From NCBI GenBank assembly GCA_949743265.1, contig CATJSX010000193.1, positions 1-64,000 of the forward strand: a stretch of DNA of 64,000 nucleotides. Reading direction: 5' to 3'. Source of the DNA: an uncultured Peptococcaceae bacterium (GTDB lineage: Bacteria > Bacillota > Peptococcia > Peptococcales > Peptococcaceae). The notes under the pieces were generated by a model, which ran no database searches, was not told the origin of the DNA, and was given only the letters and a program-made list of their open reading frames with translations. Shown here piece after piece: positions 8,306 to 13,830 of this stretch (position 1 is the first letter of the stretch; each line of letters opens with the position of its first letter). Position numbers and translations under genes: made by a program.

Positions 8306-8420
8306 GTTGTCAGCGGCTTGACAGCGCTTTGACAGGCAGTGTATAATACATCAAAATGAGCAAAGGCGTTCATTATGGCGTAGCAAAACTATGCCAAAAT
8401 GAACGCCTTTGCTTTTTTAT
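8306..8420 (+). promoter_or_regulatory. Leader with candidate ANTAR hexaloops and an intrinsic terminator
   Basis: A terminator stem of 16 base pairs (8359-8374 with 8398-8413) is followed by a T run and lies before the first gene of the nitrogen operon. Its left arm can instead fold as a 7-bp hairpin at 8355-8374 with hexaloop AAAGGC (8362-8367), which has the A1 and G4 bases of ANTAR-protein target loops. A second 7-bp, six-base-loop hairpin lies at 8306-8325 (loop GCGGCT: G4 present, A1 absent). The two states exclude each other. An ANTAR protein is encoded by the last gene of the operon. Caveat: a TTGACA-18-TATAAT promoter (8318-8347) overlaps the upstream hairpin; if it is the only promoter, only the second hairpin is transcribed. 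Confidence 0.6.
8318..8347 (+). promoter_or_regulatory. Promoter of the nitrogen operon
   Basis: TTGACA (8318-8323) and TATAAT (8342-8347) with an 18-base spacer: near-consensus sigma-A elements. The predicted start falls just before the terminator hairpin. Confidence 0.65.
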
Positions 8421-8445
8421 TGTCTCTGAAAGGCAGGAAAACACG

Positions 8446-9540
8446 ATGAAGATAGAAGGTCAAATACGCATTCCCTCCGGTTGTGCCATTGCAGCCGTTA
8501 TTTCCAAAGACGGCAAGCGATTTTCTGGCGAAATGATTACCAATGCTATGAAACCCATGCACGATCGTTCCAATGGTTTAGGCGGCGGCTTTGCCAGTTA
8601 TGGTATCTACCCAGATTATCAAGAATTTTACGCTTTGCATTTATTTTTTGATGAGCGGGCAACGCGCAAAAATTGTGAAGTTTTTTTGAAAGAACGCTTC
8701 GAAATTGTTAAATCAGAAATTATCCCCACCCGCAAAATTCCAGCAATTACTGATGAACCCATCATCTGGCGATATTTTGTTGCGCCGCTAAAATCAATGC
8801 TAGCATCAATGCAGCTTGACGAAAAAGAATTTGTCGCCCAAACGGTAATGAAAATCAATACCGAAATGAAAGGCGCTTATGTATTTTCCAGCGGCAAAAA
8901 TATGGGAACATTCAAAGCGGTAGGTTTTCCCGAAGATGTTAGCAGATTTTACCAATTAGAAGAATACGAAGGCTATTCATGGACGGCGCACGGGCGTTAT
9001 CCAACCAATACGCCGGGTTGGTGGGGTGGTGCTCATCCATTTACACTCTTAGATTATTCTATTGTACATAACGGCGAAATTTCATCTTATGACGCCAATC
9101 GCCGTTTTATCGAAATGTTTGGCTATAAATGCTCACTACAAACGGATACGGAAGTGGTTACTTATATTTTAGATTATCTCATTCGCGTTCAAGGATTAAC
9201 ACTTCAAGAAGCCGCCAGCGTCATTGCAGCGCCTTTTTGGAGCACCATTGAAGGCAAAACCAGCGCCGAAGAACGACAAAAGCTCCTTTATCTGCGTACA
9301 ATTTTTTCCAGTTTATTGATCACTGGACCATTTTCCATCATTTTAGGCTTTGAAGATGGACTAATGGCTTTGAACGACCGGCTGAAACTTCGTTCAATGG
9401 TCATTGGCGAAAAAGATGACAAAGTATTCATTGCCAGTGAAGAAGCCGCTATTCGCGCTATGGCGCCTGATGCCGAAAATATCTGGGCGCCTGCTGGCGG
9501 AGAGGCAGTTATTATTTCTATAAAGGACGGTGCTTATTGA
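8446..9540 (+). CDS. Glutamate synthase glutamine-amidotransferase domain protein
   Basis: A class II glutamine amidotransferase as a separate 364-residue polypeptide, equivalent to the N-terminal domain of GltB. It releases ammonia from glutamine for the synthase. The start at 8446 follows AGGCAGG; the probable nucleophile is the early Cys (residue 13, in PSGCAIAAV). The amidotransferase signature follows: RSNGLGGGFASYGIYP, then HGRYPTNTPGWWGGAHPF and IVHNGEISSYDANR. A longer reading frame from 8356 runs through the terminator hairpin and is rejected. Its stop overlaps the next start (TGATG at 9538-9542), so the synthase parts are co-translated. Confidence 0.88.
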   Translation: MKIEGQIRIPSGCAIAAVISKDGKRFSGEMITNAMKPMHDRSNGLGGGFASYGIYPDYQEFYALHLFFDERATRKNCEVFLKERFEIVKSEIIPTRKIPAITDEPIIWRYFVAPLKSMLASMQLDEKEFVAQTVMKINTEMKGAYVFSSGKNMGTFKAVGFPEDVSRFYQLEEYEGYSWTAHGRYPTNTPGWWGGAHPFTLLDYSIVHNGEISSYDANRRFIEMFGYKCSLQTDTEVVTYILDYLIRVQGLTLQEAASVIAAPFWSTIEGKTSAEERQKLLYLRTIFSSLLITGPFSIILGFEDGLMALNDRLKLRSMVIGEKDDKVFIASEEAAIRAMAPDAENIWAPAGGEAVIISIKDGAY

Positions 9541-11045
9541 TGAGCGTAGCATTTATTTATCCTGAATTCGAAGTGATACGTCATACCGACCGCTGCACGA
9601 ATTGCAAAATCTGTGTGCAACAGTGTGCCAGCGGCGTGCATATTTTCGATGTCAAAAACGACAGACTAACTACTGACGATAGCCGTTGTATCGACTGTCA
9701 GCGCTGCGTTTCCTTTTGTCCAAGCCAAGCGCTTAAAATCGTCAAAAGCGATTGCGCCTTACGCGAAAACGCCAACTGGAAAAGCGATACTATCAAAGAA
9801 ATTTACAAACAAGCCAATAGCGGCGGCGTATTACTTTCTTCTATGGGCGCACCTAAAACATTGCCGGTTTATTGGGATAAACTTTTGCTCAACGCGTCCC
9901 AAGTAACCAATCCTTCCATTGATCCTTTGCGAGAGCCTATGGAAACACGCGTATTTTTAGGCAAAAAACCAGAAAAAATTGCTCGCGATACGCGGGGAAA
10001 ATTGATTTGCCAATTGCCGCCGCAACTAGAATTGGCTATGCCTATTATATTTTCAGCCATGAGTTATGGCTCTATCAGTTATAATGCTCACGCCGCTTTA
10101 GCTAAAGCCGCCACTGAATTAGGTATTCTTTACAATACTGGCGAAGGCGGATTACACGAAGATTTTTATGCTTACGGGCAAAATACTATCGTGCAAGTAG
10201 CGTCTGGTCGTTTTGGCGTTCACGAAGCCTATTTAAAAGCTGGTGCCGCTATCGAAATCAAAATCGGACAAGGTGCAAAACCGGGTATTGGCGGACATCT
10301 ACCGGGTACAAAAATTGTTGGCGATGTTTCCCGTACGCGTATGATTCCCGAAGGCTCCGACGCTATTTCGCCAGCACCTCATCACGATATCTATTCTATC
10401 GAAGATTTACGTCAGCTGGTCTATTCACTAAAAGAAACGACCGAATATCAAAAACCGGTTATTGTTAAAGTAGCCGCCGTTCACAATATCGCCGCTATTG
10501 CTAGCGGCATCGCCCGAAGCGGCGCTGACATTATCGCTATTGATGGTTATCGCGGCGGCACTGGTGCTGCGCCTACCAGAATCCGCGACCATGTGGGAAT
10601 CCCTATTGAACTGGCTTTAGCGGCTGTAGATCAGCGGTTGCGTGATGAAGGTATTCGCAATCAAGTCTCACTCATTGTTGGCGGCAGTATTCGCAGCTCG
10701 GCAGACGTTGTAAAAGCCATCGCCTTGGGCGCGGACGCTTGCTATATAGCGACAGCAGCGCTTTTGGCATTAGGCTGCCATCTTTGCCGCAGCTGTCAAA
10801 GCGGTAATTGCAGCTGGGGCATTGCGACACAGCGTCCAGAATTAGTCAAACGACTTGATCCCGAACAAGGCAGTCAACGATTGATCAATCTGCTGACTGC
10901 TTGGCAACATGAAATTAAAGAATTGATGGGCGGTATGGGAATCAATTCCATCGAAGCCTTGCGAGGTAATCGCCTAATGCTGCGCGGTTTGGGACTAACA
11001 GAAAAAGAGTTGACTATTTTAGGCGTTGCCCATGCTGGCGAATAA
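9540..11045 (+). CDS. Glutamate synthase FMN domain protein with ferredoxin-like N-terminus
   Basis: The central synthase domain of GltB as its own 501-residue protein. Residues about 15-65 hold two ferredoxin-type clusters (CTNCKICVQQC and CIDCQRCVSFC). The FMN/2-oxoglutarate barrel follows (FSAMSYGSISYNAHAAL, GEGGLHED, KIGQGAKPGIGGHLPG, and IDGYRGGTGAAP). A CHLCRSCQSGNC motif near the end matches the 3Fe-4S site. It makes two glutamates from 2-oxoglutarate and glutamine-derived ammonia. No GltD (NADPH) subunit is present, so the ferredoxin domain probably receives electrons directly. The ATG at 9540 with AAGGACGG upstream is preferred over the TTG at 9537. Confidence 0.9.
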   Translation: MSVAFIYPEFEVIRHTDRCTNCKICVQQCASGVHIFDVKNDRLTTDDSRCIDCQRCVSFCPSQALKIVKSDCALRENANWKSDTIKEIYKQANSGGVLLSSMGAPKTLPVYWDKLLLNASQVTNPSIDPLREPMETRVFLGKKPEKIARDTRGKLICQLPPQLELAMPIIFSAMSYGSISYNAHAALAKAATELGILYNTGEGGLHEDFYAYGQNTIVQVASGRFGVHEAYLKAGAAIEIKIGQGAKPGIGGHLPGTKIVGDVSRTRMIPEGSDAISPAPHHDIYSIEDLRQLVYSLKETTEYQKPVIVKVAAVHNIAAIASGIARSGADIIAIDGYRGGTGAAPTRIRDHVGIPIELALAAVDQRLRDEGIRNQVSLIVGGSIRSSADVVKAIALGADACYIATAALLALGCHLCRSCQSGNCSWGIATQRPELVKRLDPEQGSQRLINLLTAWQHEIKELMGGMGINSIEALRGNRLMLRGLGLTEKELTILGVAHAGE

Positions 11046-11080
11046 ATACTCTGGTGGAAGTTTTGGAGGTGTAGTATAAT

Positions 11081-11803
11081 ATGAAATCAATCAAGGTAAC
11101 CCATATGAATCACCAAACATTAAACGATCAGTTGCGTCAAGTTGAAGGCGACTGCATTCTTGAGGGGTGTTGTGGTCAACGTTTTATTGCTGCCGGAATG
11201 TCAGAACGTGCCATTACAATTAACGGCATTCCCGGCAATGCGCTAGGCGCTTATTTAAACGGCGCTGTTATTACGGTTAACGCCAATGCTCAGGACGCGG
11301 TTGGCGACACTATGAACGAAGGTAAAATAATCGTTCATGGCAATATTGGCGACGCTGCCGGTTATGCTATGCGCGGTGGCAAGATTTATATCAAAGGCAA
11401 CGCCGGCTATCGCGCAGGTATTCATATGAAAGCATATAAAGAAAAAATCCCGCTGATGATTATCGGCGGTTCAGCAGGTAGCTTTCTCGGCGAATATCAA
11501 GCGGGCGGCATTATCATCGTACTAGGTCTGCTTACACAAAACAAACGTATTGTAGGCAATTTTCCTTGTACTGGTATGCATGGCGGCAAAATGTTTTTGC
11601 GAGGCGAATGCCTTGATATCAATTTTCCCCGCCAAGTTACTGCTAAATTAGCTGATGATAACGATCGTGACGAATTAAAAACATACCTTGACGAGTATTG
11701 CTTATTATTCGGCTATGATCTTGAAGAAATTTTGAATGCGCCTTTTACTGTGGTTATACCGGATAGCAAAAATCCTTATCAACAAATGTATGTCGCCAAT
11801 TAA
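11081..11803 (+). CDS. Glutamate synthase GXGXG domain protein
   Basis: A 240-residue right-handed beta-helix protein equivalent to the C-terminal GXGXG domain of GltB. This domain is structural and helps align the amidotransferase and synthase sites. Repeated G-x-x-G-x-x-M/L turns are visible (GNALGAYLNG, QDAVGDTMNEG, GDAAGYAMRGG, AGYRAGIHMK). It is the third piece of the split synthase, between the FMN protein and glutamine synthetase. A GGAGGTG ribosome binding site lies upstream. The split is like that of archaeal glutamate synthases. Confidence 0.88.
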   Translation: MKSIKVTHMNHQTLNDQLRQVEGDCILEGCCGQRFIAAGMSERAITINGIPGNALGAYLNGAVITVNANAQDAVGDTMNEGKIIVHGNIGDAAGYAMRGGKIYIKGNAGYRAGIHMKAYKEKIPLMIIGGSAGSFLGEYQAGGIIIVLGLLTQNKRIVGNFPCTGMHGGKMFLRGECLDINFPRQVTAKLADDNDRDELKTYLDEYCLLFGYDLEEILNAPFTVVIPDSKNPYQQMYVAN

Positions 11804-11818
11804 AAGAAAGTAGGTCAC

Positions 11819-13033
11819 ATGATGAAGTATTCGCCACAAGAAGTTCTCCAATACGTCCAAGAGGACGATGTAAAATTTATTCGTTTGGCATTCTGCGATG
11901 TTTTCGGCAAACAAAAAAATATTTCCATTATGCCGCATGAACTCTCTCGCGCTTTTAACTATGGAATTGCTATCGATGGCTCTGCTATTGTTGGTTTTGG
12001 TGACGAAACCCATTCTGATCTTTTGCTGTATCCAGACGCTGCCACGCTATCGCTGTTGCCATGGCGACCGGAACACGGCAAAGTAGTTCGTATGTTCACC
12101 AGTATTCACTATCCCAACGGCAAACTATTCGAAGGCGATACGCGCAGTTTATTAAAAACGGCAGTCGCCGAAGCGCAAAAAAAAGGTTGTCATTTTTCTT
12201 TTGGTGCAGAGCAGGAATTTTATCTTTTTATGCTGGATACCAACGGTAAACCAACAAAAATCCCTTATGACGAAGCCGGCTATATGGACGTTGCTCCCGA
12301 TGACAAAGGTGAAAATATCCGCCGCGAAATATGTCTAACATTGGAACAAATGGGAATTCTGCCAGAAAGTTCCCATCACGAAGAAGGTCCGGGACAAAAT
12401 GAAATTGATTTTCGCTATTCTGATGCCCTTGCCGCTGCCGACAACGCGCTAACTTTTCAAACGATTGTCAAAACCGTCGCTCGCCAAAACGGTCTCTATG
12501 CTGATTTTGGCGCCAAGCCTTTAGCTAATGCGCCGGGCAATGGTTTTCACATCAATATGTCGGTCAAAGCTGACCATGATGCTGATTATCTATATCCCAT
12601 GATTAGCGGTATTTTGGATAAAATCTGCGACATGACACTCTTCTTAAATCCAACAGAAAATTCTTATCAGCGTTTTGGCAGCAATAAAGCGCCAAGCTAC
12701 GTTTCATGGTCCAGCGAAAATCGCTCTCAGCTGGTAAGAATTCCAGCGGCAACGGGAGAATACCGGCGAGCAGAACTGCGTTCTCCCGATCCAACAGCGA
12801 ATCCTTATCTAGCTTTTGCCTTATTGATTTACGCTGGTCTCTATGGTATAGCAAACCAATTGCCTTTACCAAAAGCGGCAGATTTTAACCTCTACAAAGC
12901 CGACGCCGCAACGCTGGCGCAATTCACACCATTGCCGCGCAGCCTAGCAGAAGCTTGTCGTTTTGCCGCTAAAAGTGATTTTATCAGCCAATATCTGCCT
13001 GCTGCCATTCTTAATATTTATTGTCGTCAATAA
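11819..13033 (+). CDS. glnA: Type I glutamine synthetase
   Basis: Converts glutamate, ammonia and ATP to glutamine. The 404-residue protein is a little shorter than the usual ~440. N-terminal beta-grasp domain: KFIRLAFCDVFGKQKNISI. Catalytic features: FGAEQEFYLF, HHEEGPGQNEIDF, the NGFHINMS histidine loop, NSYQRFG and RSPDPTANPYLAFALLIYAG. The usual C-terminal adenylylation segment is not evident. It is 15 bases from the GXGXG gene and in one operon with the complete glutamate synthase, so the operon encodes a full GS-GOGAT cycle. Start codons ATG ATG at 11819/11822 follow AGAAAGTAGG. Confidence 0.92.
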   Translation: MMKYSPQEVLQYVQEDDVKFIRLAFCDVFGKQKNISIMPHELSRAFNYGIAIDGSAIVGFGDETHSDLLLYPDAATLSLLPWRPEHGKVVRMFTSIHYPNGKLFEGDTRSLLKTAVAEAQKKGCHFSFGAEQEFYLFMLDTNGKPTKIPYDEAGYMDVAPDDKGENIRREICLTLEQMGILPESSHHEEGPGQNEIDFRYSDALAAADNALTFQTIVKTVARQNGLYADFGAKPLANAPGNGFHINMSVKADHDADYLYPMISGILDKICDMTLFLNPTENSYQRFGSNKAPSYVSWSSENRSQLVRIPAATGEYRRAELRSPDPTANPYLAFALLIYAGLYGIANQLPLPKAADFNLYKADAATLAQFTPLPRSLAEACRFAAKSDFISQYLPAAILNIYCRQ

Positions 13034-13066
13034 ATTATTGATCACTCGCCAAAAGGAGGACGCGGA

Positions 13067-13651
13067 ATGGATTTGCAGGAACGACTTTACAGTGTGTTGC
13101 TTGTTTCAGCAGCGGAAAATTTTAATATCGCCTTAACCGCTTTACTTCCCGAAGCGCTTTATTCGCCGCTGCATATTGTTTCCAGCGTGAGTGCCGCTAA
13201 AAGAGCCATTTATGAACGTTCTTTTGACTATGTCATTATCAATGCGCCACTAGCCGATGAATTTGGCACGCGTTTTGCTATTGATACTTGCCATACGCAA
13301 GGAACAATCGTTTTGCTTTTGGTAAAAAGTGAACTTCACGCTGAAATTCATGATAAAGTAGTCAAATACGGCGTTTTCACCTTGCCTAAACCCATCTCAA
13401 AAACTACGGTTGCTTTAGCGCTCAACTGGATGGCAAGCGCTAGGGAACGGCTGCGAAAATTTGAAAAAACGACCTTGTCGCTTGAAGAAAAAATGGAAGA
13501 AATCCGTGTCGTCAATCGTGCCAAATGGCTATTGATTAGCGAGCTAAAAATGAATGAACCGGACGCTCATCGCTACATCGGTAAACAAGCAATGGATCGC
13601 TGTATTTCCAAACGGGAAGTAGCAGAAGAAATCATCAAAACTTATTTGTAA
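13067..13651 (+). CDS. ANTAR-domain RNA-binding regulator with pseudo-receiver
   Basis: A 194-residue regulator. Residues 8-120 have a response-regulator fold, but the phosphoacceptor Asp is replaced by Asn59 (VIINAPLAD) and the acidic pair after strand 1 is missing (LLVSAAEN). The KPI lysine region remains. A coiled coil (125-145) leads to a C-terminal ANTAR domain (RAKWLLISELKMNEPDAHRY, then AMDRCISKREVAEEII). ANTAR proteins bind pairs of six-base RNA loops and stop terminator formation. This gene closes the GS-GOGAT operon, and the operon leader has a matching structure, so autoregulation by antitermination is likely. The lost Asp suggests control by something other than phosphorylation. 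Confidence 0.88.
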   Translation: MDLQERLYSVLLVSAAENFNIALTALLPEALYSPLHIVSSVSAAKRAIYERSFDYVIINAPLADEFGTRFAIDTCHTQGTIVLLLVKSELHAEIHDKVVKYGVFTLPKPISKTTVALALNWMASARERLRKFEKTTLSLEEKMEEIRVVNRAKWLLISELKMNEPDAHRYIGKQAMDRCISKREVAEEIIKTYL

Positions 13652-13717
13652 AAAAATATTTGGTAAGCAAACAAAATAAAACGGCTAATCTTTCTTCTTG
13701 TCCAAATTACCAATAAA

Positions 13718-13774
13718 AAAACTTCCTAACCGATGCAAGCAAGGTTGTGCTATTCTGGTTAGGAAGTTTTTTTA
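13718..13774 (+). terminator. Terminator of the nitrogen operon
   Basis: A 12-base perfect stem (AACTTCCTAACC / GGTTAGGAAGTT) ending in seven T. A's on the other side make it usable in both directions between convergent operons. Confidence 0.9.
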
Positions 13775-13830
13775 TTCTCATCAGTTTATGGTTTCGCTTG
13801 TATTGGCTTAACCATTTCTCATGAGATTTT

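Follow-up and report, generated by a model that had tools for sequence, protein, structure and literature searches.

A single hexaloop at the predicted 5′ end of a GS-GOGAT transcript: a candidate ANTAR-controlled attenuator in an uncultured Peptococcaceae bacterium

NitR-type ANTAR antiterminators are present in the GS-GOGAT operons of C. saccharobutylicum and C. acetobutylicum. In an uncultured Peptococcaceae bacterium, a GS-GOGAT operon ends in an ANTAR gene and is preceded by a terminator whose left arm contains the sequence of a six-base-loop hairpin. The question raised by this locus is whether the ANTAR protein encoded in the operon operates the leader as an attenuator and, if it does, whether through one hexaloop or two. 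ANTAR targets were defined as dual hexaloops, with linkers of 5–12 nt in eut leaders (PMC3369931), or with linkers of 2–25 nt allowed (PMC8164766). Both hexaloops are needed by EutV of E. faecalis, where removal of P1 abolished induction (PMC3369931), a result that counts against a single-hexaloop reading. According to the work on the EutV-RNA structure, a single hexaloop is the minimal binding unit, but a dimer has to engage the two hexaloops one after the other (PMC8934654), which likewise counts against that reading. Glutamate and glutamine synthesis are already among the known ANTAR targets (Ramesh et al. 2012, PMC3369931), and the GS-GOGAT cluster Clo1313_2030-2036 of C. thermocellum has an ANTAR gene, noted in a paper that also points to NitR (PMC4676874). 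In a literature search with most subscription-journal papers outside its scope, we found no paper describing a natural single-hexaloop leader and none devoted to NitR.

The operon and its leader

The window is the whole stretch of DNA analyzed, 64,000 nucleotides long, and the features of the locus are collected in Table 1. The ANTAR domain is C-terminal in the product of the last gene (Pfam score 59.8 bits, cut-off 27.3). The glnA product scores below the cut-off of NCBIfam GlnA. The gltA start was placed by comparison with the starts of relatives; the ATG at 8356, though in frame, was rejected because it is part of the hairpin and the leader frame is not conserved. A promoter scan of 8446-13651 found no strong internal promoter. 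In many relatives about 1.7 kb lie between gltB(FMN) and gltC, probably encoding an electron-donor subunit, and are missing at 9537-11081 of the window. The inverted repeat at the operon end has A and T runs on both sides, so that it is likely a bidirectional terminator.

Table 1. Features of the GS-GOGAT operon and its leader, in coordinates of the window
Feature	Position	Strand	Basis
Sigma-70 type promoter: −35 TTGACA (8318-8323), 18-nt spacer, −10 TATAAT (8342-8347)	8318-8347	+	12/12 consensus matches
Single ANTAR-type hexaloop hairpin: 7-bp stem, loop AAAGGC (8362-8367; A1, G4)	8355-8374	+	Conservation, stem covariation, folding
Intrinsic terminator: left arm 8358-8374 (the hexaloop sequence), right arm 8398-8414, U run 8413-8418	8358-8418	+	
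gltA, class II glutamine amidotransferase subunit of glutamate synthase	8446-9540	+	Pfam GATase_2
gltB-like FMN/4Fe-4S glutamate synthase subunit	9537-11045	+	Pfam Glu_synthase, 472 bits
gltC, GXGXG subunit of glutamate synthase	11081-11803	+	Pfam GXGXG
glnA, short type I-like glutamine synthetase, 404 aa	11819-13033	+	Pfam Gln-synt_N and Gln-synt_C
ANTAR RNA-binding regulator with pseudo-receiver domain, last gene	13067-13651	+	Pfam, alignment, structure model
Operon-end terminator: 20-bp perfect inverted repeat, T run in right arm	13712-13776	+	

The position of the promoter predicts a transcript start at about 8354-8355, and the hexaloop hairpin begins seven bases past the −10 box. Folding gave −5.5 kcal/mol (z −4.4) for the lone hairpin and −40.4 kcal/mol (z −12.2) for the leader including the terminator, so that holding the hairpin would require a factor. 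The RNA model R1, built on the leaders of relatives, matched the leader at 8350-8416 with 71 bits, while Rfam 15 gave no family above the gathering score either at this leader or at the type B elements described below. A first-pass annotation, made from the sequence of the window, had proposed a GS-GOGAT operon closed by an ANTAR gene, a 7-bp hairpin with A1 and G4 in its loop, and a terminator sharing its left arm with that hairpin. All three are upheld: the operon by the Pfam assignments, the hairpin by folding, conservation and covariation, and the terminator by the consensus pairs found in relatives.

The operon and leader are patchily distributed in the window's own family, where a close ANTAR orthologue was found in 6 of 13 genomes, yet GltA of the window is 82–86% identical to GltA of several Clostridia. 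This suggests that operon and leader were horizontally transferred.

Conservation of the leader and its association with the ANTAR protein

Querying species genomes with the ANTAR protein yielded 80 loci, mostly from gut and rumen Clostridia. The gene immediately upstream of the ANTAR gene was glnA in all 78 resolvable loci, the other two being cut by a contig start, and the whole glt operon was present at many of the 80. A hairpin of the form TGAGC-AANGGC-GTTCA, or a close one, was carried by 47 leaders located before gltA or glnA, the window's included. Of the 47 leaders, 36 have a high-scoring promoter, and in 30 of these the GAGC segment begins 6–13 nt past the −10 box; in ten of the other eleven, a TATAAA-like box can be read at a comparable distance, which makes a total of about 40/47.

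Concerning the terminator, 28 aligned leaders share 17 consensus pairs. Both partners have changed in 8 of these, most of them in the distal half. The half containing the hexaloop varies mostly via G-U pairs on the right arm, which is what a left arm constrained by an additional function would lead one to expect. The hexaloop stem could be assessed with the help of a second leader type, AAGGC-AAAGGC-GTCTT, which has an identical loop on a different stem. Across both types, 93.8% of the cells were paired, versus 79.7% in shuffles, and the covariation between the types amounted to 59 two-sided cells, versus 18.6 in shuffles; slid controls gave at most 53% paired and at most 16 two-sided cells. 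What does not vary in the hairpin is the C-G pair that closes the loop, together with positions 1, 2 and 4 of the loop, A1, A2 and G4 being conserved in 60/60 aligned hairpins and position 3 being variable. More distant leaders keep A1 and G4 on other stems (GGGC/GCTC, CAGC/GCTG, CGGC/GTCG), the hexaloop being single and often beside a promoter.

Further elements were found in the window's genome. Two R2 elements, detected de novo (E 1e-11 and 9e-13), lie in tandem at C152:51571-51745 (L233 1072-1246) and precede the genes for a type III glutamine synthetase (glnN) and an ammonium transporter fused to P-II (amtB-PII). The first element starts 9 nt past a TTGACA-TATAAT promoter. A 3-mismatch pattern scan of the same genome had returned 57 matches, mostly noise, and covariance models were used instead; weak matches of R1 (G000:C34, E 0.008) and of R2 (C77 and C32) were set aside as elements. 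In relatives, type B elements stand most often before the GS III gene, and also before gdhA, gatCAB, pyrG, asnB, nadE, purC, purA, glmS, gltB, dapF and amtB (gltB and some amtB being named from translation alone); most of these genes, as assigned, make or use glutamine, glutamate or ammonium.

The relation between leader and ANTAR gene was examined in a sample of 150 genomes from the family to which G052 belongs, accepting R1 matches with E up to 1e-4. R1 matched 33 of them and the ANTAR profile 74. An ANTAR orthologue was present in 32 of the 33 R1-positive genomes, compared with 74 of all 150 (Fisher p 4e-11, uncorrected for relatedness). In 27 of the 33, the R1 match and the ANTAR gene share a strand, the match lying 1.4–7.9 kb upstream. 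R1 matches in the window's own class (46 genomes) were confined to genomes with a close ANTAR orthologue. Concerning R2, 24 of 27 positive genomes had an ANTAR protein and 3 had no orthologue. These results bear on an alternative in which the leader is a constitutive terminator or 5′-end hairpin, or the target of another RNA-binding factor, with the ANTAR protein acting elsewhere. That 42 of the 74 ANTAR-positive genomes gave no R1 match would agree with it; among 15 of these that were inspected, about half had more diverged single-hexaloop leaders. The near-exclusive co-occurrence of R1 with the ANTAR orthologue, the A1/G4 signature of the loop and the fact that the window's genome combines three such elements with just one ANTAR gene speak against it, and we consider it unlikely.

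The only ANTAR protein of the window's genome is the product of the last gene of the operon. Its predicted structure (pLDDT 87) matches EutV-RNA 6ww6 at TM 0.77, and also Rv1626 and AmiR. By alignment, the EutV RNA contacts K149, E160 and M172 correspond to K153, E164 and M176, which are invariant here. The positions of EutV K143 and K147 are basic, with one His at K147, that of Y164 is His or Gln, and R142, R175 and R177 are not conserved among the aligned ANTAR proteins, which counts against the reading preferred below. In the receiver domain, Asn59 occupies the phospho-Asp position, at the end of the third strand, in 23/23 aligned proteins, and the acidic pair is replaced by Ser-Ala or similar (Ser14). 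Judged by the alignment, this is a pseudo-receiver and not a phosphorylatable one, so that control by a histidine kinase is unlikely. A phosphorylatable receiver is not universal among ANTAR proteins.

One hexaloop or two

The first-pass annotation had taken a hairpin at 8306-8325 for the second hexaloop, which would give a classical dual target with 8306-8325 as P1 and 8355-8374 as P2, transcribed from an upstream promoter or by read-through from the MATE gene. The upstream sequence can indeed fold into a hairpin of 7 bp with a six-base loop and G4 (−7.1 kcal/mol), and the stretch from the MATE gene to the leader shows no evident terminator. Genuine dual leaders also occur within the order: L159 (3641-4319, minus strand) and L104 have one directly before their own, more distant ANTAR gene, with the form GTGC-AATGGC-GCAC, 14 nt, GGAC-AAAGAC-GTCC. 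The loop of the upstream hairpin, however, is GCGGCU, without A1, and the linker to 8355 would be about 29 nt, versus 5–12 in eut leaders (PMC3369931). The hairpin also contains the −35 box of the perfect promoter, so it should not be transcribed from it; this overlap, admitted at the outset as the weak point, proved decisive against P1.

The relatives have no counterpart of the upstream hairpin either. In the approximately 40 of 47 leaders where the hexaloop hairpin starts right after the −10 box, there is no room for an upstream P1. Counting stems of at least 4, a second A1/G4 hexaloop was found upstream in 2 of the 47, versus a shuffle mean of 2.2, that is, at chance level. Six or seven of the 47 have a longer 5′ segment (e.g. 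L046, L049, L064), where no A1/G4 hexaloop stands out. Downstream, within the terminator loop, a second hexaloop was plausible in 4/47 only (L027, L062, L067, L068), and the search for a second hexaloop at either place was thus answered negatively. We regard the dual target as very unlikely. So, it can be said that ANTAR antitermination and autoregulation, as first proposed, receive good support from the comparative evidence (conservation, covariation, co-occurrence with the ANTAR gene, and a regulon), while the paired-hexaloop architecture was not found in the window or in its relatives. The lack of a second hexaloop is no refutation of ANTAR control but the sign of a variant, and the leader would be, by its sequence features, a 5′-terminal single-hexaloop form and not the published dual-hexaloop motif. 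As a separate observation, 8306-8325 contains a TGTCA-N6-TGACA inverted repeat around the −35 box, which may be due to chance; we take it to resemble a GlnR/TnrA box with the spacing off by one.

The palindromic character of the element and its adjoining the promoter could also fit a DNA operator at +1 for a repressor. This is highly improbable, since the tandem pair before glnN has its second copy about 100 bp further downstream, with a separate right arm and T run for each copy, and the right arms drift via G-U pairs as RNA pairing allows. Hardly credible is a role for the NTG in the stem as start of a leader peptide (MSKGVH...) driving attenuation, or as a leaderless start, for although ATG, GTG or TTG occurs at that place in 45/47 leaders and the frame is open into gltA in the window, codon 3 switches freely between Lys and Asn, stops occur anywhere from codon 8 to beyond 30, and type B leaders (e.g. 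before GS III) do not have the codon.

Proposed mechanism and significance

The reading that we prefer, with a probability of about 0.8, is that the leader would be an attenuator, operated via the single hexaloop at the predicted transcript 5′ end by the ANTAR protein that the operon itself encodes. When the polymerase leaves the promoter, the first 20 nt would fold into a weak hairpin with the loop A1-A2-N-G4-G-C. The active ANTAR protein would grip this loop and block pairing of its 3′ half with the terminator's right arm, so that the polymerase would read through into gltA-gltB-gltC-glnA-antar. With the ANTAR protein inactive, the far more stable terminator would form and transcription would stop. 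Since the regulator is encoded by the last gene, we propose that the circuit is self-controlled. The same protein probably operates the two tandem elements that precede the genes for GS III and Amt-PII as well.

Concerning the signal, the missing phospho-Asp and the lack of a kinase gene in the operon indicate that a partner or ligand signaling glutamine status probably sets the activity of the ANTAR protein. The leading candidate is the neighboring glutamine synthetase, on the basis of gene adjacency and the missing phospho-site. AmiR offers a precedent, its receiver-like domain being controlled by the partner AmiC and not by phosphorylation. The window's protein also shares with AmiR (1qo0), by alignment, the His at the EutV Tyr164 position; unlike in AmiR, the partner would be a different one.

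The window's system has in common with the dual-hexaloop systems of EutV/eut, NasR and AmiR an ANTAR protein, an A1/G4 six-base loop overlapping the left arm of a terminator, and nitrogen genes; it differs in its single hexaloop, placed where the transcript is predicted to begin. The likeness to EutV-RNA extends to the fold and to the Glu, Lys and Met contacts, whereas Tyr164 is His and R142, R175 and R177 differ in the window's protein. The paper on that structure predicts one hexaloop as a possible target and holds two necessary for antitermination (PMC8934654), whereas the natural leaders described here have one. With the NitR-type clostridial systems, the window shares the ANTAR gene in a GS-GOGAT cluster and the proposed antitermination; unlike the available part of that account (PMC4676874), which gives no leader structure, the present work describes leader, architecture and regulon. 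The link of ANTAR proteins to GS-GOGAT genes is thus already known, and what is added here is the single-hexaloop form of the leader, with a candidate regulon.

The accepted model requires two hexaloops, and the structure indicates that the dimer binds them one at a time; natural and widespread leaders with one hexaloop make the question directly testable. The single-hexaloop form would explain why dual-hexaloop searches and Rfam miss this leader. A broader proposal, in which one 5′-terminal hexaloop suffices in many gut Bacillota, governing a glutamine regulon through a non-phosphorylatable ANTAR protein switched by the neighboring glutamine synthetase, is tentative and rather doubtful as a whole. 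For many uncultured gut Clostridia and their relatives, the elements described here provide a candidate regulon of nitrogen (glutamine) genes.
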